Part shown: one piece after another, positions 11,480 through 58,383 of the stretch
How positions within the stretch are numbered: position 1 is the first letter of the stretch
Layout of the letters: each line of letters opens with the position of its first letter
Assembly: GCF_000016665.1 (NCBI RefSeq)
Contig: NC_009523.1
Span: 2,480,001-2,544,000 of the forward strand
Length of the DNA: 64,000 bases
Reading direction: 5' to 3'
Origin: Roseiflexus sp. RS-1
Lineage (GTDB): Bacteria > Chloroflexota > Chloroflexia > Chloroflexales > Roseiflexaceae
Program-made: the position numbers and the translations under genes
Notes under the pieces: generated by a model
Told to the model about the DNA's origin: nothing
The model's database searches: none
The model's input: only the letters and a program-made list of their open reading frames with translations

Positions 11480-12700
11480 CCATTCTTTCCTTGATGGTCT
11501 TTGAGTCAATGCTGCAAACACGCACCGCCGGGACGCCGGGGGCGCGGAGTTTTCCATCATCTCTATGTCTATGGGAACTGCTACAAATGCTCAGACTGCG
11601 GGCTGAAGCCCTCGCTGAGCACCTGGAAGCCCCTACGGGGCTTGGGCGTATGGGAGACTGCGGGCTGAAGCCCTCGCTGAGCACCTGGAAGCCCCGGCGG
11701 GGCTTGGGCGTAGAGTCCTGGGAGCGCGGGCGTCCCCGCCCGCGTGCGGAGATTGCGGGCTGATGGAGATTGAGAAATACATCCGGTATGCGCCCTTGCC
11801 GTGGGGCTGAAGCCCTCGGCTACGCAAGGCGAAGCCCGCCTGCGCGGGCTAGAGCGGAATAATTACTCAATGACCATAAGCCCTCGGCTATCCAGGGCGA
11901 AGCCCGCCTGCGCGGGCTAGAGCGGATTATGTACTCAAAGACCATAAGCCCGCGCTGAGCGCCTGGAAGCCCCTGCGGGGCTATGGCGTAGAGTCCTGGG
12001 TGCGCGGGCGTCTCGCCCGCATGCCTGGCGCCTGGGTGCGCGGGCGTCTCGCCTGCATGCCTGGCGCCTGGGAGCGCGGGCGTCCCGCCCGCGTGCGGAG
12101 ATTGCGGGCTGATGGAGATTGAGAAATACATCCGCTATCCCGTGCTAGCCGTGGGGCTGAAGCCCTCGGCTAGCCAGGGCAAAGCCCGCCTGCGCGGGCT
12201 AGAAAAGACCATAAGCCCTCGCTGAGCGCCTGAAAGCCCCGGCGGGGCAAGGGCGTCGAGTCCTGGGTGCGCGGGCGTCCCGCCCGCATGCGCGCCGGAG
12301 GCGCGCGCACCTGGAGCAGACGCTGCTGATATGCGCGCCGGAGGCGCGCGCACCCATGAACTTGAATGGGGTGCGGGCGTCCCCGCCCGCATGCGGAGAT
12401 TGCGGGCTGATGGAGATTGAGAAATAAATCCGCTATCCCGTGCCAGCCGTGGGGCTGAAGCCCTCGGCTCGCCAGGGCAAAGCCCGCCTGCGCGGGCTGG
12501 ATAAAGACTATAAGCCCTCGCTGAGCGCCGGGAAGCCCCGGCGGGGCTATGGCGTCGAGTCCTGGGTGCGCGGGCGTCCCCGCCCGCATGCGCGCCGGAG
12601 GCGCGCGCACCTGGAGCAGACGCTGCTGATATGCGCGCCGGAGGTGCGCGCACCCATTTGAATGGGGCGCGGGCGTCCCCGCTCGTACGCACTGAATGAA
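11480..12700. repeat. mosaic of inverted 100-116-bp MITE-like elements and hairpin repeats
   Basis: This gene-free stretch is built from elements ending in ATGGAGATTGAGAA and TCAATGACCAT or TTTGAGTCAAT-type termini. Fairly complete copies in minus orientation lie at 11763-11876, 12112-12212 and about 12410-12511. They contain the hairpin-forming core GCCCGCCTGCGCGGGC and GGGGCTGAAGCCC. Between them lie blocks with CGCCGGAGGCGCGCGCACC and GCCCCGGCGGGGC. The same families recur at 17590-18354, 22082-22197, 39660-40197 and 63501-63616. No ORF in here has homology or a ribosome site. Confidence 0.85.
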
Positions 12701-48963: not shown

Positions 48964-49266
48964 TCAATCGGTGGAGTGATAGCGCGCTTGAAGGAAATCG
49001 ATCCGGTCGTCACTGACGACATACACCAGACGGTGCTCTTGAGTGATCCGCCGCGACCAGACATCCGCACCCAGATACCTGATCGGTTCTGGTTTGCCTG
49101 TACCGGTGAAAGGATCGCGCATAATGGCTTCGATCAAGGTCATGATGCGCAATGCGGTTCGCCTGTCCTTCTCAACCCAGCAGCTCAGATCATCGCGAAA
49201 CTCTGGCTGGAACACAGCATCACGCAGCATGCTCTGCGCCCGATCGTTCTTACTCGTTTTCGACAA
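48964..49266 (-). CDS. YoeB/Txe-family mRNA interferase toxin
   Basis: 100 residues, a ribosome-dependent endoribonuclease of the RelE superfamily. Diagnostic YoeB features are intact: ALRIMTLIEAIMRDPFTGTGKPEPI, VWSRRITQEHRLVYVV and the C-terminal YHSTD, which keeps the Tyr-His pair of the family. It overlaps its antitoxin by 17 bases, the usual arrangement. No damage is visible, so the module is probably active. Confidence 0.9.
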   Translation of the reverse strand: MSKTSKNDRAQSMLRDAVFQPEFRDDLSCWVEKDRRTALRIMTLIEAIMRDPFTGTGKPEPIRYLGADVWSRRITQEHRLVYVVSDDRIDFLQARYHSTD

Positions 49267-49537
49267 GCCCTACCTCACGACGCAGGTCATCAATGGACTG
49301 TGGCGTTCCATTGCGTTGCCGCGCCCGTGTGAGCGCCGCCAGCAGACGCTCCGCATTGGCTGACGAGCGGAGAAGATGCACTGTTTCAAGCAGGCTCTGC
49401 AATTCGTCGGCAGCTATCAAGGCAACATCTTCACCGCTGCGACGCTGAATGATAACAATATCACGATTATTGACCACGTCATCGAGCAGCGCTGCCAGTC
49501 GGGCGCACGCCTGCGTGTAGGTCGTCTGGACGGGCAT
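49250..49537 (-). CDS. Phd/YefM-family antitoxin
   Basis: 95 residues. The N-terminus (YTQACARLAALLDDVVNNRDIVIIQRRSGEDVALI) is the Phd/YefM DNA-binding dimer fold, and the acidic C-terminus would wrap the toxin. First gene of the operon. A palindromic operator containing TGTACA lies 19 bases upstream, consistent with YefM autoregulation. Confidence 0.9.
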   Translation of the reverse strand: MPVQTTYTQACARLAALLDDVVNNRDIVIIQRRSGEDVALIAADELQSLLETVHLLRSSANAERLLAALTRARQRNGTPQSIDDLRREVGLVENE

Positions 49538-49555: not shown

Positions 49556-49582
49556 ATGTTGTACAGAAGTACTGTACGGCAT
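49556..49582. promoter_or_regulatory. palindromic operator of the YefM/YoeB module
   Basis: ATGTTGTACAG, 5 bases, CTGTACGGCAT: two 11-base arms with two mismatched positions. It includes TGTACA, the hexamer that E. coli YefM is known to bind. Confidence 0.65.
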
Positions 49583-49645
49583 GTCCTGCTTACTGTCAAA
49601 ACCGACAAACACTTAACAATTTCTTGATGACAAACACAGTGCGAC

Positions 49646-50374
49646 ATGGTAGCATTAATCGTGCTTGATAGCACTGCAATAGCGCCTATGCATTTTGCCA
49701 GATATCTCGAGCGCCTCGCAACCACTCTTCCACGCGGTGCGACTGTCTATGTCTTCAGTCCAGACGGGATCGTCTATACAGTGAGCAGGAACTCGATCCG
49801 TCGCCTGGATCCGACCCGACGCGCCGAGGATTGCGTCGACATGCTGCGTTTTATCGATACCGGGCAGTATACGCGCTACCTGATCGGTTCCGCCTCTACC
49901 TCGGACGACAATCCGGCGAATGCCACCTTCAAACTCGGATTTGTTCACCCGCACAGCGCCTTTACCCCCCATGCACACGGCGCGGAGCACTTCGTGCTGA
50001 GCATGGGGTATGCGTCGTGCGGGTTGTACGACCACGACCAGGAGGCAGTCGCTCACGTGCGATTGATTCCCGGCTCACTGCTCCATATTCCGGCAATGAT
50101 GCCCCATTCGTTCAACAATCGCGCCAATGCGCCGTTACCATTGGTGATTGCCAACACCGGCATGGGCATCGATCACGAGGACTATGCGATTACAGCGGCA
50201 ATGGCGGAAGAGCGCGCCCGTCGCGGCGATGAGGCGGCGGAGCGCCTGGTTGCCGCGCTGCGGAAACTGGAAGCAGAGATGGCATCTGAACGTGTGCATG
50301 CAGATGTGTCGTTGCGTGAGCGTCTGGCAGGGTTCCTGCGTCGGCTTGCTGGCGTACTGGAGGGAGGCGCATGA
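49646..50374 (+). CDS. cupin-domain protein
   Basis: 242 residues. The cupin core at about 95-165 has metal-ligand type motifs: HPHSAFTPHAHGAEHFVLSMG with several His and a Glu, and PGSLLHIPAMMPHSFNN. The C-terminal 70 residues are a charged helix (AAMAEERARRGDEAAERLVA). It may bind metal as an enzyme or act as a sensor. The start is uncertain: ATG 49646 lacks a clear ribosome site and ATG 49688 is an alternative. It opens a tight six-gene operon, the next start following the stop directly. Confidence 0.75.
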   Translation: MVALIVLDSTAIAPMHFARYLERLATTLPRGATVYVFSPDGIVYTVSRNSIRRLDPTRRAEDCVDMLRFIDTGQYTRYLIGSASTSDDNPANATFKLGFVHPHSAFTPHAHGAEHFVLSMGYASCGLYDHDQEAVAHVRLIPGSLLHIPAMMPHSFNNRANAPLPLVIANTGMGIDHEDYAITAAMAEERARRGDEAAERLVAALRKLEAEMASERVHADVSLRERLAGFLRRLAGVLEGGA

Positions 50375-51484
50375 ATGAAATGTCCGCATTGCCTTGCTGA
50401 TTTGAAATACCGTGATCGGCGCGATGGGAAGTGCGCAAAGTGCCGCCGTCCATTCGCGCTGGAACCGCGCGGCGATGTGCTGGGAATGAGCGACCTGCGC
50501 CTGCGCGGGCTTGCCGAACGTCTGAGCGATCAGGGAAAGTGCTGGTATACGGCGGCGCAACTCGGGCACGCTGCGGTTCGGAACAGAATAAGGAGAAAAC
50601 CGCAGTTCGACTTAAGGGACAGAATGCTTGTGATCGGCATTGTTGCCATCATGGTTCTGGTAAGCCTCTTTGTAAGCCTTTTCATTGAACCTGTTCGTAT
50701 CTTCTCCTGCATTGCATTTCTGGTTATGATTATTCTCGGAATCTCGGCAGCCAGGCAGTATCTTGAGTTTTCAAAGCCTCCCCTGTATGGGTTTTTGCCG
50801 ATACTTGAGCGTTTCGAGGAGCGGTATATTGCTCCCTGGGAACGCATCCACGGCGTGTTGCCCGGCAGGGTGACCGCTCAGGAGGCGACGGCGCTGCGCC
50901 GGTTTCAACTGCCGCCATCTGAGGTGCGCGCCGTGCTGACGTCGCCGGTCGCCGATGTGCTCGACTGCCTGCGGGCGAATGGGTTGCCGCAGCGCCTCGG
51001 TCTGGCGTTGATCAACCCCAATCAACCCGCCAGCGCTGATGAGGCAATCATCGCCTTGCTGCGCAGCCGTCCGCAATTGCCGCTGCTGCTGGTGCACGAC
51101 GCCAGCGTGTCCGGATGTTTGCTGCCAGCGCTGCTGCCCGCCCGATGGGGTCTCGCGCCGAACCACCGGATCGTCGATCTGGGGCTGCGTCCCCGCCACG
51201 TGCAGCAGTTGCGCCTGCCGTGGAAGCGTGAGGCAACGCCGCGCGAACTGCTCGATCTACTCGAACGCCGGGCGCAGATGCCGGGCGGTCTGGCGCTGAC
51301 GCCGGAAGAGCGCGAATGGTTGCGCAGGGGGTATGTGACGTCGGCTCTGTTTATCCCGCCCGCGCGCCTGGTGACGATTGTGACGCAGGCAGTGGAACGC
51401 CTGGCGCCCGCGCGCATTGTCGATCCTGAAGCGCAGGCGCAGGCGCAGGCGCGCGCCGTCGGTTTTATGACCTGGCCCTCGTAG
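50375..51484 (+). CDS. zinc-ribbon membrane protein with unrecognised C-terminal domain
   Basis: 369 residues. A zinc ribbon (CPHC at 3-6 and CAKC at 20-23) is followed by a charged segment, two hydrophobic spans at about 85-125 (MLVIGIVAIMVLVSLFVSLF and IFSCIAFLVMIILGIS), then a soluble domain of about 230 residues ending GFMTWPS. That domain contains LLLVHDASVSG and VDLGLRPRHVQQLRLPW, both matched in the next gene. No known family was identified. ATG 50375 is the base after the cupin stop. Confidence 0.75.
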   Translation: MKCPHCLADLKYRDRRDGKCAKCRRPFALEPRGDVLGMSDLRLRGLAERLSDQGKCWYTAAQLGHAAVRNRIRRKPQFDLRDRMLVIGIVAIMVLVSLFVSLFIEPVRIFSCIAFLVMIILGISAARQYLEFSKPPLYGFLPILERFEERYIAPWERIHGVLPGRVTAQEATALRRFQLPPSEVRAVLTSPVADVLDCLRANGLPQRLGLALINPNQPASADEAIIALLRSRPQLPLLLVHDASVSGCLLPALLPARWGLAPNHRIVDLGLRPRHVQQLRLPWKREATPRELLDLLERRAQMPGGLALTPEEREWLRRGYVTSALFIPPARLVTIVTQAVERLAPARIVDPEAQAQAQARAVGFMTWPS

Positions 51485-51498
51485 CGGCGGAGCAGTGC

Positions 51499-52464
51499 AT
51501 GAACGGATTATTTCTGAAACGGACGTCATCAATGGCAAGCCTCATTGCCGCACTCGATCAGAGTGTGACGCAGATCGGCATCAGCGGGGTGCGCTACACG
51601 CGCCAGCAACTCTACTATGAGTTCTGTCGCACGTTGCTGCCGTTCGCACAGGTGGTTGCTTCGTGGTCGAGCGTGGCAGCAGTGGGCAGCGCTTCGGTGC
51701 TTGCAGCGTGGCGCCCTTCACGCCCGCTCTGGTCCGGCATCATGGGCGCGGGCGCCCGGATCGCCGTTCCGTCCCTTGTGCGCCGATTGCCATTTACGCT
51801 CACGCCGCCGGTGACCGATGCGTTGTTCGATGAAGTGTTGACGACATACCGCATCCGCTACGGCGATCCGCCGGGTTTGCTTCCCGATGATCCGGCGCCC
51901 TGGCGTGCAATCGATGGACGTGAACCTGACCTCTACGACTATGGGCTGGCATATGCGCTCGTCTGTCAGGATGCCTCGATTGCGCAAATGTTGCGCGCGA
52001 ACTTCCTGCACATGGAGATGGCGTGCGCCATTCTCGCGCGGGAAGAAGCGACGCCCCTGCCCGATGCGCTGGTTGCAATGCTCATACGCGCATCCTCACC
52101 ACGGGTGCTACTGGTGCACGACGCGAGCCTGGCAGGTCTGCGGTGGATCACTCACGCTGCCGAACTGCTCGATGTACCGCGCGGCTTCCGGGTAACGGCA
52201 TTGGGACTGCGTCCCATGCACGCGTTGCGGCGCCATCTGTTCGCTTTGCGTCACGCTGCGGACACCGGCGAACTGCCCGCGTCGCTGAACCTGATCGAAC
52301 GTCTCTGGTTGCGTGCCGGGTATCAGGCGGAACTCGCCGCCCTCTCCCCGGTTGTGTTGCTGCGCGCGCTGCGACGTGCCACTCGCCCGACGCCGCGCCG
52401 CGACTCCTGGTGGTCTGGGTTCCATCGGTGGCGTGCATCTGGCTATATGAGTTGGACTGCGTAA
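51499..52464 (+). CDS. paralogue of the preceding C-terminal domain protein
   Basis: 321 residues without the zinc ribbon. RYTRQQLYYEFCRTLLP near 34 recalls WYTAAQLGHAA in the neighbour. One weakly hydrophobic stretch lies near 55-90. The C-terminal domain aligns by eye with that of 50375-51484: RVLLVHDASLAG, VTALGLRPMHALRR and the final GYMSWTA. The neighbour's zinc ligands and clear membrane spans are missing, so the two may form a heteromeric membrane-anchored pair. Function unknown. ATG 51532 is an alternative start. Confidence 0.7.
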   Translation: MNGLFLKRTSSMASLIAALDQSVTQIGISGVRYTRQQLYYEFCRTLLPFAQVVASWSSVAAVGSASVLAAWRPSRPLWSGIMGAGARIAVPSLVRRLPFTLTPPVTDALFDEVLTTYRIRYGDPPGLLPDDPAPWRAIDGREPDLYDYGLAYALVCQDASIAQMLRANFLHMEMACAILAREEATPLPDALVAMLIRASSPRVLLVHDASLAGLRWITHAAELLDVPRGFRVTALGLRPMHALRRHLFALRHAADTGELPASLNLIERLWLRAGYQAELAALSPVVLLRALRRATRPTPRRDSWWSGFHRWRASGYMSWTA

Positions 52465-52477
52465 CCTGGAGGTGGTT

Positions 52478-53056
52478 GTGAAATCGAATCCCCATGTGTT
52501 GACGTATCAGGACGAAGTGCTCGCCGATGGCAGTTTGCGCCGTTCCTTCAGCGATGGTCGCTACGAATGGCGTCGTCGTCTGCCGGACGGACGGGTCGAG
52601 TGGCAGGATAGTCAGGGGTATGCAGGGATAGACGAGTTGCTCGGTGACGGTATCATCAAGCGCACATTCAATAATGGACAGGTCATCTATGCCCGTGAAC
52701 AGGGGTATGGGCGCACACTCTGGCATGGTGGAAGGGTGTTGACGGTGAACCAGACGTCGTTTAGTGGTCGAGTGGGTATGATCCTGGCATCTATGGGCGC
52801 CGGGTTTCTGCTTGGCGCACTCGTGCCGCCGCCGGAGTTTCTGTCGCCTGAGGAAGAAGAAATGTTGCGCCAGAAAGCGCTGCAACAACAGCAGACCGGT
52901 TATGGGAGCGATGGCGGCATCGGCGGCGGCGGTGTCGATACTGATTGGGATAGCAGTTATAGCGACGATAGTGCAATACAGTATGAACCTGTTGAACAGG
53001 GATCGGAATTTGACAGTGACGATATTGGCGATCTTGATGTCGGAGACTTCGGATGA
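52478..53056 (+). CDS. MORN-like protein with membrane segment and acidic tail
   Basis: 192 residues from GTG 52478, chosen because GGAGG at 52468-52472 is optimally spaced to it (GTG 52472 lies inside that site). The N-terminal 80 residues have short repeats with D-G-x-hydrophobic pattern (VLADGSLRRSFSDGRYEW, LPDGRVEWQDSQGY, LGDGIIKRTFNNGQVIY), MORN-like beta hairpins. A hydrophobic segment (MILASMGAGFLLGALVPP) is at about 107-124. The last 55 residues are Gly/Asp/Ser/Glu-rich. The stop overlaps the next start (ATGA). Possibly a scaffold or modification substrate for the operon's enzymes; that is inference. Confidence 0.7.
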   Translation: MKSNPHVLTYQDEVLADGSLRRSFSDGRYEWRRRLPDGRVEWQDSQGYAGIDELLGDGIIKRTFNNGQVIYAREQGYGRTLWHGGRVLTVNQTSFSGRVGMILASMGAGFLLGALVPPPEFLSPEEEEMLRQKALQQQQTGYGSDGGIGGGGVDTDWDSSYSDDSAIQYEPVEQGSEFDSDDIGDLDVGDFG

Positions 53057-54729
53057 TTGAGACGACAATCACAGAATCGGTTAGCGGTCGTCTTGCCTCC
53101 TGGATCGAGCCCGACGGACGTCGGTCGGAAACGTACCGGCTCGATGGTCTGGTTGCGGCTGGCTCGGTGCGGTTGTTCAACCGTGCCTCTCTGATCGATG
53201 CGCTGCGGCGCGATGGCGTCTCATTGCCGGACGATTGCGCCGATGGGATGATCCTGTTGCGCCTGTACACACAGTATGGTTCGCGTGGCTTTGCGCTTGC
53301 CAATGGTATGTTTGCGCTCGCCATCCTCGACGGCGAAGACCTGATCCTGGTGCGCGATCACGCTGGAGCGCGCACGCTGTTCTATACCCGCTTCGAGGAA
53401 CGATGGGTCGCTTCTGCGTCACTGGGCGCGTTGCGTTCCCTGATCGGTCAGCATGCGCGCCTGAACCTGAATGCCGTCCGTTCGTTCCTGACGTTTGCCT
53501 ATCTGCCGGGTGACGAAACGCTGATCGATGGCGTGTACGAGATGCGTCCAGGGCGTTGTCTCCGCCTGTGCGCCGATGGTGCGCGCCGTGAGGACGTCTT
53601 CTGGGAGCCGCGCGAATATGAATGGTGCGAAGCTGACCCGCCAGAAGTATATGCACAGCGGTTGCGCAATCTGCTCGAACAGGCGGTTGCTGCACGCCTG
53701 CCGGTCAACCAGGACGTGGGGGTCTTCCTCTCTGGCGGCATCGACAGCAGCCTGGTCACTGCGCTGGCAGCACGGTTGCACGACCGACCGGTACGCACGT
53801 ATGCGATCAATTTTGGCGATGAATACCCCAACGAACTGGCGTACTCCGGTCTGGTCGCTGCACACTGCCGTACAACGCATACTGTGCTCACATTCGATGG
53901 AAAGACTGTCGCCGACCATCTGGCGGAAACCGTTGCCCTGCTCGACTGTCCGGTCGGCGACCCGCTCACCACGCCCAACCTGCTCCTGGCGCGCGCCGCA
54001 GCGCGTGATGGTCTGGCGGTGATCCTGAACGGCGAAGGCGGCGATCCGGTGTTTGGCGGTCCCAAGAACCTGCCGATGCTGATGTTCGAGTTCCACCGCG
54101 ATGATCCAGACCCGGCGGCGCGGGCACGCGCCTATTTGCGCTCGTATCAGAAGTGCTACGGCGAACTGGATCGGTTGCTCACCCCCGATGTGCTGGAAGC
54201 GTTGCGTGATGCGCCATCGCTGGAGCGCCACGTGCAACCGTACCTCGAGTCGCCGCGCATGACCTCGTTCCTGAACCGTCTGCTGTACACCAACCTGCGC
54301 ACGAAAGGCGCGCACCACATTCTGCCGAAAGTCGAGCGCCTGACCGCAGCCAGTGGTGTCGAAGGGCGTTCGCCGCTGTTTGACCCGCACCTGATCGATG
54401 CTGCATTTGCGACACCGCCTGCTTTGAAACTCCACGGTTTGCAGGAAAAATGGATCCTGAAGCTCGCAGTGCGCGATCTTCTTCCGGAGACCATTCTGAA
54501 CCGTCCCAAGAGCGGTATGTTGATGCCGGTGCAGTACTGGCTGCACGGTCCGTTGCGCGAGATGGCGAACGACCTGTTGCTGGGATCACAGGCGCAGGCG
54601 CGGGGTCTCTTTCGTGAACAGACGGTGCGTGTCTGGATGCAGGGCAGGGGTCTGATCTGGCGGCGTCACGGTCAATTCATCTGGTTGCTGCTCACGCTGG
54701 AACTGTGGTTGCGCGCATATCGATTGTAG
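53053..54729 (+). CDS. asparagine-synthetase-like amidotransferase lacking the glutaminase Cys
   Basis: 558 residues. The C-terminal synthetase domain has the PP-loop FLSGGIDSS (225-233), NGEGGDPVFGG and GVEGRSPLFD typical of AsnB-family enzymes that adenylate a carboxylate. The N-terminal amidotransferase fold is recognisable (MFALAILDGEDLILVRDHAG near 86-105), but the protein starts MIETT and has no Cys2, so it cannot hydrolyse glutamine in the normal way. Relatives with this lesion make beta-lactam, lasso-type or other amide bonds with an amine as acceptor. ATG overlaps the stop before it. Confidence 0.85.
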   Translation: MIETTITESVSGRLASWIEPDGRRSETYRLDGLVAAGSVRLFNRASLIDALRRDGVSLPDDCADGMILLRLYTQYGSRGFALANGMFALAILDGEDLILVRDHAGARTLFYTRFEERWVASASLGALRSLIGQHARLNLNAVRSFLTFAYLPGDETLIDGVYEMRPGRCLRLCADGARREDVFWEPREYEWCEADPPEVYAQRLRNLLEQAVAARLPVNQDVGVFLSGGIDSSLVTALAARLHDRPVRTYAINFGDEYPNELAYSGLVAAHCRTTHTVLTFDGKTVADHLAETVALLDCPVGDPLTTPNLLLARAAARDGLAVILNGEGGDPVFGGPKNLPMLMFEFHRDDPDPAARARAYLRSYQKCYGELDRLLTPDVLEALRDAPSLERHVQPYLESPRMTSFLNRLLYTNLRTKGAHHILPKVERLTAASGVEGRSPLFDPHLIDAAFATPPALKLHGLQEKWILKLAVRDLLPETILNRPKSGMLMPVQYWLHGPLREMANDLLLGSQAQARGLFREQTVRVWMQGRGLIWRRHGQFIWLLLTLELWLRAYRL

Positions 54730-54736
54730 CAGGATC

Positions 54737-56164
54737 GTGGAACTTCTCCGGCATCCCGATAGCGTTGCGGGTGACCTGTTCGAAGCCTTCACCGCCCATG
54801 GTTTGATCTACGGAACGGGGGAGGCATATCCGTCGTTGATTACACCTTCGTCGTGCGTGCTCGACGGCGCTGAAACTGCGGCAATAACCGCTGATCTTGC
54901 GCTGATCTGGCGCTTCTACCGCACCTGGAACGATCTGTACCGCGCGTCGCTGGCGGGTGAAGAGCCGCGCTGGATTGCCGATCTGTGCGAATATGGACTT
55001 CGTCCCGAAGAAGTTCAGGCGCAGCGTATCACGCTTGCCGCCGGTCTCGAACCACGTTTCTGTCGGGTGGACTATATCGCAATCGGTGCAACGCGGGCGA
55101 TTGCCGAAGTGCAGTGGAAATCGGGCGGGGTCGGTCTCTTCTTCGGGATTCATGACATCTGCGCCGGTGTCGCATCGGCAACCGCTGTGCGTGCTGGCGA
55201 TCTGGTGCAGGGGTTACGCGCGCTGATCCTGCGCTGCGGCAATGGTGAACCGGTTGCTGTCAATGCTGTTCGTTCGGTCTGGCTACGCGGTGAGCACTAC
55301 CTGCGACGCGTTTGCGACCATCAGGGCATGCGCTATATCGTTTTCGACCGACGCGAAGGGATGCGGCGGATTGTCGAGCGGAGCGGCAATGTCATGGTGA
55401 CCGACGGCGGGAAACTGCTGCGGATCGATTTCCTGTATGCTCAGGAATTGTTACCGGCGATCGCGCCGCCGATGATTGTGCGCCTGGCGCGCGCCGCCGC
55501 TGATGGCAGGCTCTGGATCGAAACGCCGATCAACTATGTGTACCGTCAGAAGTGGGGAATGGCGCTGCCATTTATGCCTGCCTATGCGCACCTGTTCGAT
55601 GCACGGCTACGCGCATTGTTTGGTGCAGTCGTCCTGGTGCATCCCCGAACAATCGATCTCTCTCCGCTCGCCGATGGCGCACCTGAAGGGATCGCGCGTC
55701 AGTTATGTTCGATCCGCACCCTGGACGACCTTGCCCATCTGTCGACCGCCGCGCGGCGCATGCTGGTGTTGAAGTGCGGTGCGGGCATCGGGGCATACTA
55801 CAGCCAGGGACGTGGCGTGCTGCGTCTCAACGGTTCGCGCAGCGCAGCCCAAAAAACGCTGGCATTTGTGAAAGAACGGCTGGCGCAGGGGGAACCGTGG
55901 ATTATCCAGCGCTATGTTGATGTGACCTATCCGCTGGACGTATGCCCGCCATGGGCGCTGCACGCATTGCAGCCCATCGACGCCCACGCCCGTTTTATGG
56001 TCTACGCAACCGTCGATCCAGCCGGATCGCCACAGATGATCGGCGGGTTGGGCAACTTCAGCAGCGATTGGAAGGTCAGCGGCAGATCGGCGCGTATCGA
56101 CGAACACGGGCGCATCGTGGGCGCAGCGTTCAATGATATGCGTTGGGTTGGAGGTGAGGAGTAG
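54737..56164 (+). CDS. putative ATP-grasp-like ligase
   Basis: 475 residues from GTG 54737, with AGCAGGA upstream. The middle (LRIDFLYAQELLPAIAPPMI, then GRLWIETPINYVYRQKWGMA) and the end (WIIQRYVDVTYPLDV, FMVYATVDPAGSPQMIGGLG) resemble the permuted ATP-grasp/glutathionylspermidine-synthase-like fold, in which a backbone of this order binds ATP and activates a carboxylate. I cannot confirm every ATP ligand by eye, so the assignment is tentative. It lies seven bases after the AsnB-like gene and ends the operon; heptamer-like sequence follows its stop. Confidence 0.55.
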   Translation: MELLRHPDSVAGDLFEAFTAHGLIYGTGEAYPSLITPSSCVLDGAETAAITADLALIWRFYRTWNDLYRASLAGEEPRWIADLCEYGLRPEEVQAQRITLAAGLEPRFCRVDYIAIGATRAIAEVQWKSGGVGLFFGIHDICAGVASATAVRAGDLVQGLRALILRCGNGEPVAVNAVRSVWLRGEHYLRRVCDHQGMRYIVFDRREGMRRIVERSGNVMVTDGGKLLRIDFLYAQELLPAIAPPMIVRLARAAADGRLWIETPINYVYRQKWGMALPFMPAYAHLFDARLRALFGAVVLVHPRTIDLSPLADGAPEGIARQLCSIRTLDDLAHLSTAARRMLVLKCGAGIGAYYSQGRGVLRLNGSRSAAQKTLAFVKERLAQGEPWIIQRYVDVTYPLDVCPPWALHALQPIDAHARFMVYATVDPAGSPQMIGGLGNFSSDWKVSGRSARIDEHGRIVGAAFNDMRWVGGEE

Positions 56165-57052: not shown

Positions 57053-57994
57053 TTATACCGCCATCTCCATCTCTGCATCGTACACATGCCAGACGATGCG
57101 GCAGGCGACGGCGAATCCGCACGACTCAAACAGGCGCTGCGCCGGGGTATTCCAGCTCCCAACGCTGAGCAGCGCCTGCGCGATCCCGATCGCGCGCATG
57201 GTTCGTAACGCCAGCAGCAGCAGCGCGCGCCCTGCGCCCCGTCGTCGGTACGCGGGATGCACGCCGATCAGGTCAATCCAGGCAGCACTGAATCCAGGTC
57301 GCGTATTTTCCTCCGCGCAGACCGAACAGCGACAGAATGCCGCCAGCGCACCGTCCGGCGCAACAGCCGCCAGATCGAGCCGCGGATCGTATGCCGGGCT
57401 GCGCATCCACGCCACCCGTTCTGCCACCGTTTCGGATGCAGTTGCGAATGCGGCGTGATGAAGATCGACCAGCGCAGGCGCTTCGGACTCACCGGCGACG
57501 GTGCGCAGCGTGAAACCGGGAGGAATGGAAGGATCGGCAATCGGTTGATGGAGCCAGCGGCGCATACGGATCATATGCCACTCCTCGAGACGCAGACCGG
57601 CGCGCGCCAGCAATGCCATGCGGTGATGGTCGTCATCACGCACAGGAACGCAGAGGACGGTGCGCTCGCCGCACTGTTCCGCAAGAGTGCGCGCCCGTTC
57701 AGTCGCCCAGGTGAGCGCATGCATCTCAAGCGTTTCGTCGCCAGCCTGTGGCAAAGCGTGGTACAGGAAGATGTTACCCTCCCAGATCATTGCGAAAGCG
57801 ACAGGACGTTCACGATCATCGACCCACACCCGTGCATCGTTCGAGATGCCGGGTTGTGCACTGAGCCGCGCGCGGATGTCGTGAACGGGGGGCCAGGGAT
57901 CGGTGGGCGCTTCGGCGCGGCACGTGAGGATCAGGTCTATCACCCCCTCAAGATCGTCGGGGTGACGATACGGATGGCTCGCAGGCGGCTTCAT
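57053..57994 (-). CDS. two-domain GNAT-family acetyltransferase
   Basis: 313 residues, with two GNAT-like halves. The C-terminal half carries a good acetyl-CoA loop (LIGVHPAYRRRGAGRALLLLALRTM) and ends in RLFESCGFAVACRIVWHVY. The N-terminal half is degenerate. This tandem form resembles MshD-like or other duplicated GNATs; the substrate is unknown. The ATG lies 43 bases after a heptamer-containing gap, and a TATACT-like element near 58048-58055 on the minus strand could be its promoter. Confidence 0.83.
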   Translation of the reverse strand: MKPPASHPYRHPDDLEGVIDLILTCRAEAPTDPWPPVHDIRARLSAQPGISNDARVWVDDRERPVAFAMIWEGNIFLYHALPQAGDETLEMHALTWATERARTLAEQCGERTVLCVPVRDDDHHRMALLARAGLRLEEWHMIRMRRWLHQPIADPSIPPGFTLRTVAGESEAPALVDLHHAAFATASETVAERVAWMRSPAYDPRLDLAAVAPDGALAAFCRCSVCAEENTRPGFSAAWIDLIGVHPAYRRRGAGRALLLLALRTMRAIGIAQALLSVGSWNTPAQRLFESCGFAVACRIVWHVYDAEMEMAV

Positions 57995-58120
57995 TGTCGC
58001 CTCCTTTCACGAACGATCCTGTTCGACGTTGAACCGGTGTTATGTTCAGTATACCTGTTTTTGGAGGCTGGCGGGGTGGCGGTTTGTTTATGCGGGGGTA
58101 AGAGGCGAGCCGGGTTGCGG

Positions 58121-58220
58121 GTTGAACGTTGAACGTTGAACGTTGAACGTTGAACGTTGAACGTTGAACGTTGAACGTTGAGCGTTGAACGTTGAACGTT
58201 GAACGTTGAACGTTGAACGT
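58121..58220. repeat. GTTGAAC heptamer array
   Basis: About 14 nearly perfect GTTGAAC units, the most regular array in the window. The rest of the gap 57995-58383 shows no gene. Confidence 0.9.
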
Positions 58221-58383
58221 TACGGTTATGTGGTGCTCTTCGATTCAAGCCGCCTGGTTGACGAATCGCCATTCACGCCAACCATACCTCAATCCATGCA
58301 TCCCTGCCACTATGCTACGCTGATGATGACATCGTGCGTTATTCCTGTAACAACACGGGCAATTGTCAGGAAAGGTTTCTCCA

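Follow-up and report, generated by a model that had tools for sequence, protein, structure and literature searches.

A conserved five-gene core and its accessory ATP-grasp ligase in Chloroflexales: a possible protein-modifying module at the membrane

What does a cupin do beside two related proteins of unusual fold, a membrane protein with an acidic tail and two enzymes of amide synthesis? The genome of Roseiflexus sp. RS-1, a single contig of 5,801,598 bases, raises this question at positions 2480001-2544000 (a stretch of 64,000 nucleotides, here called the window), where six adjacent genes, g1 to g6, encode such a set. An original prediction, made from the DNA letters and their open reading frames, treated the six as one unit for an amide-forming pathway at a membrane and conjectured the modification or assembly of a peptide or envelope polymer. 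Comparison with other genomes places g1-g5 as the constant unit and g6 as an addition of one clade, and the set probably serves, at the membrane, to join a small molecule to a protein, as we infer from its enzymes, predicted folds and conserved protein ends.

A constant core and its distribution

All six open reading frames lie on the plus strand, and the gaps between them, from g1 to g6, are 0, 14, 13, -4 and 7 bases, as originally described. A tblastn search with all six proteins recovers the six-gene set in the same order and on the same strand in 6 further genomes (loci L030-L035; at L030 g1 is cut by the contig end and at L035 g2 is duplicated). Such recurrence in other genomes, with gene content, order and strand all kept, puts the operon beyond chance, and the reading of the set as one unit stands. 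Homologs that were scattered and never found together had been named as the outcome that would speak against it; the homologs co-occur.

The five genes g1-g5 are also collinear, without g6, at the divergent loci L084, L085, L090, L091 and L094. At further divergent loci g1 is frameshifted (L093 in genome G230, where the cupin gene is split at 11811-12570) or was not found (L086), and L095 begins within the set. Wherever the contig is complete, g1-g5 are adjacent and in the same order, with few exceptions. No g6 was found in the divergent clade, the downstream DNA being covered at most of those loci, and a search of the phylum with g6 gives close orthologs in four other Roseiflexus genomes and two of another genus, plus a remnant in genome G190. 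The copy in G190 (L036, 10094-15566) is decaying: it has a frameshift in g5, has lost most of g6 by deletion, carries g2 twice and lacks g1. Because g6 is missing throughout the divergent clade, the core is g1-g5 and g6 is a one-clade add-on; the six-gene unit as first proposed recurs within one clade only.

The distribution of the set is narrow and patchy. A g3 profile run on all 82 genomes of the order Chloroflexales finds the gene in 21 of them. In a scan of 84,980 species g4 occurs at 16 loci; every one belongs to a Chloroflexales-type record (Roseiflexus, Chloroflexus, Oscillochloris, Candidatus Viridilinea and metagenome-assembled genomes), and the cupin profile matches Chloroflexales only among 400 genomes of the phylum; by these two scans the operon was not seen outside the order. 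Flanking genes are common to Roseiflexus only, and no conserved seventh gene is found outside that genus. In the g5 tree a Chloroflexus copy (genome G134) nests inside the Roseiflexus clade with support of 100/99. Its identity is 78% to the g5 of the window versus 56% to other-clade Chloroflexus g5, and these sequences are most simply explained by a lateral transfer of the set. In Candidatus Viridilinea halotolerans (L095, 1049-2832) g3 and g4 are separated by an inserted PADLOC PDC-M38A/B pair, a candidate-defense pair of an AAA ATPase and a Toprim-like partner.

Enzymes, predicted folds and fixed protein ends

The only strong family match in the operon is that of g5 (Asn_synthase, 5.2e-77). 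The glutaminase motifs of g5 are absent, Cys2, HRGPD and FNGE being missing in 15 of the 15 proteins compared; the four other Asn_synthase proteins of the host genome start with MCGI and retain HRGPD and FNGE. The PP-loop is preserved as SGG(I/L/V)DSS in all copies (SGGIDSS in the window), and GEGGDP occupies the site where the host's other AsnB-type proteins have GxG(G/A)DE. Since the glutaminase motifs are lost in all copies, g5 should activate a carboxylate but take no ammonia from glutamine, using another amine or free ammonia in its place. The scores of g5 lie below the cut-offs of the more specific models: 244 bits with TIGR01536 (AsnB; curated cut-off 267.1), 124 against 525 bits with NF033535 (6.6e-36) and 105 against 300 bits with NF033561 (4.6e-30), both lasso/macrolactam models, and 1.2e-66 with the NAGGN amidotransferase model TIGR03104. 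In the PDB the sequence of g5 comes closest to a hydroxyamidotransferase and to beta-lactam synthetase.

The nature of g6 is given by its predicted structure. The AlphaFold2 model (pLDDT 74.2, pTM 0.78) matches glutathione synthetase in Foldseek with E values down to 1.4e-10, and in VIA it matches YgiC (Z 20.9), YjfC (19.8), eukaryotic GSS (18-19) and GspS (~17), with Z of 16-21 over 310-390 residues; the E-64 ligase Cp1B is also among the structural matches. On this modeled fold g6 is classed as a circularly permuted ATP-grasp enzyme of the GspS/YgiC/GSS group. R110, D112, E124 and K272 are invariant in an alignment that extends to relatives of ~20% identity, and by motif they are the likely GspS-type active-site and ATP-binding residues. 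Q126 stands where the YgiC motif R-x-D...E-x-N has N, an equivalence drawn by motif, the profile comparison with YgiC being weak. The Pfam GSP_synth model (PF03738) has no match anywhere in the host genome, g6 included. The two ATP-dependent carboxylate-activating enzymes first predicted are thus borne out as folds, AsnB by sequence and ATP-grasp by structure, but do not form the core logic of the system, g6 being optional. More distant g6 relatives, found elsewhere in the phylum, show no linkage to g1-g5. A KamA-type 2,3-aminomutase gene adjoins 3 of the 7 that were examined (~25% identity; L037 9425-12111, L041 7777-10407 and L045 8851-11604), which suggests a separate beta-amino-acid ligase pair without a name.

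The products of g2 and g3 are paralogous across the C-terminal domain (hhalign E 1.8e-17). A structural model of g3 (pLDDT 81.3) aligns in VIA with Topo VI-A (1d3y_B) at Z 10.6 with a root-mean-square deviation of 3.9 over 157 residues, followed by MksG (9.2), JetD (7.8) and Spo11 (7.3). Ranks 1-10 are all Topo VI-A, Spo11, MksG or JetD, other Toprim proteins begin at 6.3 and unrelated folds lie at or below 5.5; Foldseek alone was not significant, and the match came solely from VIA re-alignment. It is likely, then, that g3 carries a Toprim fold of the Topo VI-A/Spo11/JetD type. The Toprim metal residues of Methanosarcina mazei Top6A are E202, D254 and D256 (PMC13040014). At the corresponding positions of g3, which are inferred from the aligned ranges, stand Q157 (18 of 21 sequences), D208 (16 of 21) and S210 (18 of 21), and on the model the metal site appears largely gone. 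Upstream, the family consensus YTxRQL[YF]Y, with Y40 in 20 of 20 and R36 in 15 of 20 orthologs, resembles the catalytic tyrosine motif in the winged helix of Spo11/Top6A, which in Top6A is R102...Y106 (PMC13040014); this likeness is one of sequence, and the motif lies outside the structurally aligned region. The tyrosine motif is missing from g2.

Pfam PF21180 and JetD_C (PF09983) have no match in the host genome, and the operon has no SMC, helicase or nuclease partner and no Topo VI-B-type ATPase, the rest of the genome not having been searched for one. The membrane anchoring of the partners holds for g2, with one to two predicted transmembrane segments, and for g4, with one; it does not clearly hold for g3, in which no segment of the window protein passes the hydropathy cut-off and whose Ala-rich hairpin is absent in the divergent clade. 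The description of g2 and g3 as a zinc-ribbon membrane protein and its paralog was right about the paralogy; rather than a generic membrane pair they appear to be degenerate Toprim proteins of the Topo VI-A/Spo11 type.

Three proteins of the core have fixed ends. After variable linkers, nearly all orthologs of g2 close with G(F/Y)M(T/S)WP and those of g3 with G(Y/F/H)M(S/T)WP; elsewhere in the host genome G(F/Y)M(S/T)W is found, besides g2 and g3, at one site that no stop codon follows. The g4 tails vary from 17 to 85 residues and consist to 66% of Gly, Asp and Ser, with 0.7% Lys and Arg (Lys 0.3%) and no Cys, and yet the final residues are DFG in 18 of 19 homologs and Gly in all 19. The ATGA overlap of g4 and g5 was considered as the source of the DFG end and rejected, since DFG is kept where the genes do not overlap. 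The fixed ends of g2, g3 and g4 are present in both clades, with or without g6. Because they are kept in both clades, even without the g4/g5 overlap, they represent constraints at the protein level that belong to the core and not to g6, as the sequence comparison indicates. Neither these ends nor the predicted Toprim fold had been noticed in the original prediction. The cupin g1 has weak Pfam cupin matches only; its metal ligand pattern H109xH111xxE114...H154 (numbering of the open reading frame) is invariant in 13 orthologs.

Possible working and competing explanations

Taken together, the evidence is best accommodated by a membrane-anchored protein-modifying module in which g5 builds an amide on the g4 tail, aided in one clade by g6, while g2 and g3 organize the assembly; the probability of this reading is put at about 0.38. 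The membrane would hold g4 and leave its presumably disordered Asp/Gly/Ser tail, fixed in the last three residues, open to modification. Then g5 would adenylate a carboxylate of the tail, either an Asp side chain or that of the C-terminal Gly, and join it to an amine that does not come from glutamine, and in one clade g6 might add or supply a second amide. As a Toprim scaffold without metal, g2 and g3 may recruit the enzymes to the membrane by way of the G(F/Y)M(S/T)WP peptide that both have, and the cupin may be a metal-dependent sensor or a tailoring enzyme. The arrangement of g4 with g5 and g6 is like that of YgiB or YjfM with YgiC or YjfC, and by analogy this counts in favor of the proposal.

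Several points weigh against it. The assignment of g4 as the substrate is indirect. The charges beside its transmembrane segment, judged by eye, suggest an N-in/C-out topology. The tail would then lie outside and away from ATP, unless its modification precedes insertion; this is the main difficulty. The clade without g6 keeps DFG, so the tail end is not there for g6. The C-terminal motifs could be plain binding motifs, and the roles given to g1-g3 are guesses. A further proposal, which we regard as doubtful, is that these filamentous phototrophs use an amide-ligase system to alter the C-terminal end of a membrane protein, and that a duplicated, metal-less relative of Spo11/Topo VI-A has come to serve this system at the membrane, either as its scaffold or as its substrate, possibly through the retained tyrosine and a C-terminal GFMSWP peptide.

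The two enzymes might act on small molecules instead, g5 (with g6) joining acids and amines in solution to make something diffusible, for example a compatible solute or a siderophore-like or signaling amide. A membrane complex of g2-g4 would then serve in sensing or export. Their relatives do make small amides (TIGR03104 for g5; glutathione synthetase and Cp1B for g6), and the aminomutase genes beside three of the seven remote g6 relatives would fit such a role. However, the unit has no transporter or other small-molecule pathway gene, g6 is dispensable, and rigid C-terminal peptides in three proteins point to protein-protein chemistry; we regard this explanation as unlikely.

Less probable again is a role directed at DNA or in defense, in which membrane-tethered Spo11/Topo VI-A-like g2 and g3 bind DNA, g3 through its tyrosine, and the ligases arm or restrain them by modifying a component. 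The structural ranking of g3, its invariant Y40 in a Spo11-like motif, the patchy spread with lateral transfer and decay, and the PDC-M38 pair inside one copy all agree with such a role. The residues expected to bind metal are replaced, however (Q157, S210), g2 lacks the tyrosine motif, the operon supplies none of the usual partners, and PADLOC gives no meaningful match for any of the six proteins, the sole one being a marginal Csx19 hit of g5 (E 0.0014 over 60 residues) that was judged to be chance.

It is improbable that g4 is a large precursor like those of ribosomally synthesized and post-translationally modified peptides (RiPPs), with g5 as a lasso-like or Cys-less AsnB cyclase that crosslinks Asp side chains of a tail later cut off and released: the conserved N-terminal part and hypervariable Asp-rich tail look like leader and core, and g5 resembles the Cys-less macrolactam cyclases of NF033535 and NF033561 (both below cut-off), but tails nearly devoid of Lys mean that lactams would require a freed N-terminus, the fixed part of the tail is its end and not its start, and the unit has no leader peptidase, RiPP recognition element or exporter.

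Known systems, surroundings and significance

The nearest parallel to the favored protein-modifying module is found in the YgiB-YgiC and YjfM-YjfC pairs. YgiC and YjfC are peptide-spermidine ligases according to Pederick et al. (2023), as cited in PMC12568646, and RefSeq names agree. In these pairs a GspS-fold ATP-grasp ligase stands beside a membrane-associated protein whose low-complexity tail ends in Gly; Escherichia coli YgiB (L125 3745-4416) and YjfM (L126 4388-5026), beside YgiC and YjfC, end in -GG after a Gly/Ser-rich tail and may be their physiological substrates. The pairs lack, however, an AsnB-like enzyme, a cupin and a Toprim-like pair, g4 is unrelated in sequence to DUF1190, and g6 is optional and missed by GSP_synth. 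The operon may therefore be likened, by analogy, to YgiBC-type operons of an amide ligase and a membrane protein in its possible working. It is not placed as a member of known families, because g6 escapes the GSP_synth model, g5 falls short of AsnB and g2/g3 depart from Topo VI-A/Spo11.

Cys-less AsnB enzymes (beta-lactam and carbapenam synthetases, lasso and ikarugamycin-type cyclases) share with g5 a PP-loop synthetase and a non-functional glutaminase, whereas g5 scores far below the family cut-offs, carries GEGGDP and has membrane proteins as its neighbors in place of a precursor and protease set. Topo VI-A, Spo11, MksG and JetD share the predicted Toprim fold (Z 7-10.6), and the upstream T-x-R-Q-L-(Y/F)-Y of g3 resembles the Spo11/Top6A tyrosine motif; g2 and g3 differ in the lost metal triad, the duplication, the zinc ribbon and transmembrane segments, the absence of a Pfam match and the absence of a topoisomerase or SMC partner in the operon. 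In PspA-associated operons (PMC11237479), too, a GspS-like (SpermGS) ATP-grasp enzyme or membrane proteins with a zinc ribbon are found together with envelope proteins, but those operons have no AsnB-like enzyme or Toprim-like pair, and the present one shows no PspA, DUF350, DUF4178 or polyamine gene. Scans of Pfam, NCBIfam and PADLOC give no family above cut-off for g2, g3, g4 or g6, and a PDB sequence search with g1, g3, g4 and g6 profiles gives no convincing relative. The claim that no system with this gene set has been described is upheld in the family libraries and the open-access literature searched.

The coordinates of the genes and their features are collected in Table 1. The true start of g1 is most likely at 49688 and not 49646, since the orthologs start there and the -10-like box overlaps 49646, upstream of 49688. 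The promoter-like site of g1 is one of 5 in the region versus 2.0 expected by consensus scan and is suggestive only; terminator-like sites show no excess (3 versus 5.9 expected).

Table 1. Genes and features of the operon in the window
Feature	Position	Strand	Basis or remark
Sigma-70-like promoter, extended -10 (ATGACA-17-TAGCAT, TG before -10), upstream of g1	49627..49655	+	Consensus scan
g1, cupin-fold protein, 228 aa	49688..50374	+	Start from orthologs; open reading frame reaches up to 49646
g2, N-terminal zinc ribbon (CPHC...C..C), 1-2 predicted transmembrane segments, C-terminal domain homologous to g3, ends ARAVGFMTWPS	50375..51484	+	
g2 C-terminal conserved peptide GFMTWP	51461..51478	+	Ortholog comparison
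g3, N-terminal Tyr motif, weak hydrophobic hairpin, predicted Toprim with lost metal site, ends GYMSWTA	51499..52464	+	
g3 residues 33-40, YTRQQLYY; family consensus YTxRQL[YF]Y	51595..51618	+	Ortholog alignment
g3 predicted Toprim region, residues 131-297	51889..52389	+	VIA to 1d3y_B; Q157, D208/S210 at metal-site positions
g3 C-terminal conserved peptide GYMSWT; GYMSWP in most orthologs	52441..52458	+	Ortholog comparison
g4, repeat-like (MORN/Tcp10-like) N-terminal part, one predicted transmembrane segment, acidic Asp/Gly/Ser tail	52478..53056	+	GTG start; 52472 possible
g4 hypervariable tail ending DFG	52889..53053	+	19 homologs
g5, AsnB-type synthetase, degenerate glutaminase domain, PP-loop SGGIDSS intact	53053..54729	+	
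g6, predicted circularly permuted ATP-grasp ligase, YgiC/GspS/GSS fold	54737..56164	+	Accessory, one clade only

Upstream of g1 lies a divergent yefM-yoeB type II toxin-antitoxin pair (48964-49537, minus strand), by which the palindrome TGTACAGAAGTACTGTAC is found near 49559-49577; whole or partial, the pair holds its position upstream of g1 in other Roseiflexus. Downstream, a short tandem repeat at 58190-58260 (minus strand), with the minus-strand translation NVQRST(F/L), lies inside the open reading frame 57991-58272 and is probably non-coding.

The locus offers five protein families (g1-g4 and g6) without any Pfam or NCBIfam model above cut-off and, as handles for experiment, three C-terminal peptides that are conserved, a hypervariable tail and two enzymes with a product that can be weighed. 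If the proposal is true, the amidation of protein carboxylates known from YgiC and YjfC would be extended to a membrane system of several genes in which a glutaminase-dead AsnB enzyme is the driver, and a Toprim fold of the Spo11/Topo VI-A type would be seen to serve away from DNA cleavage.

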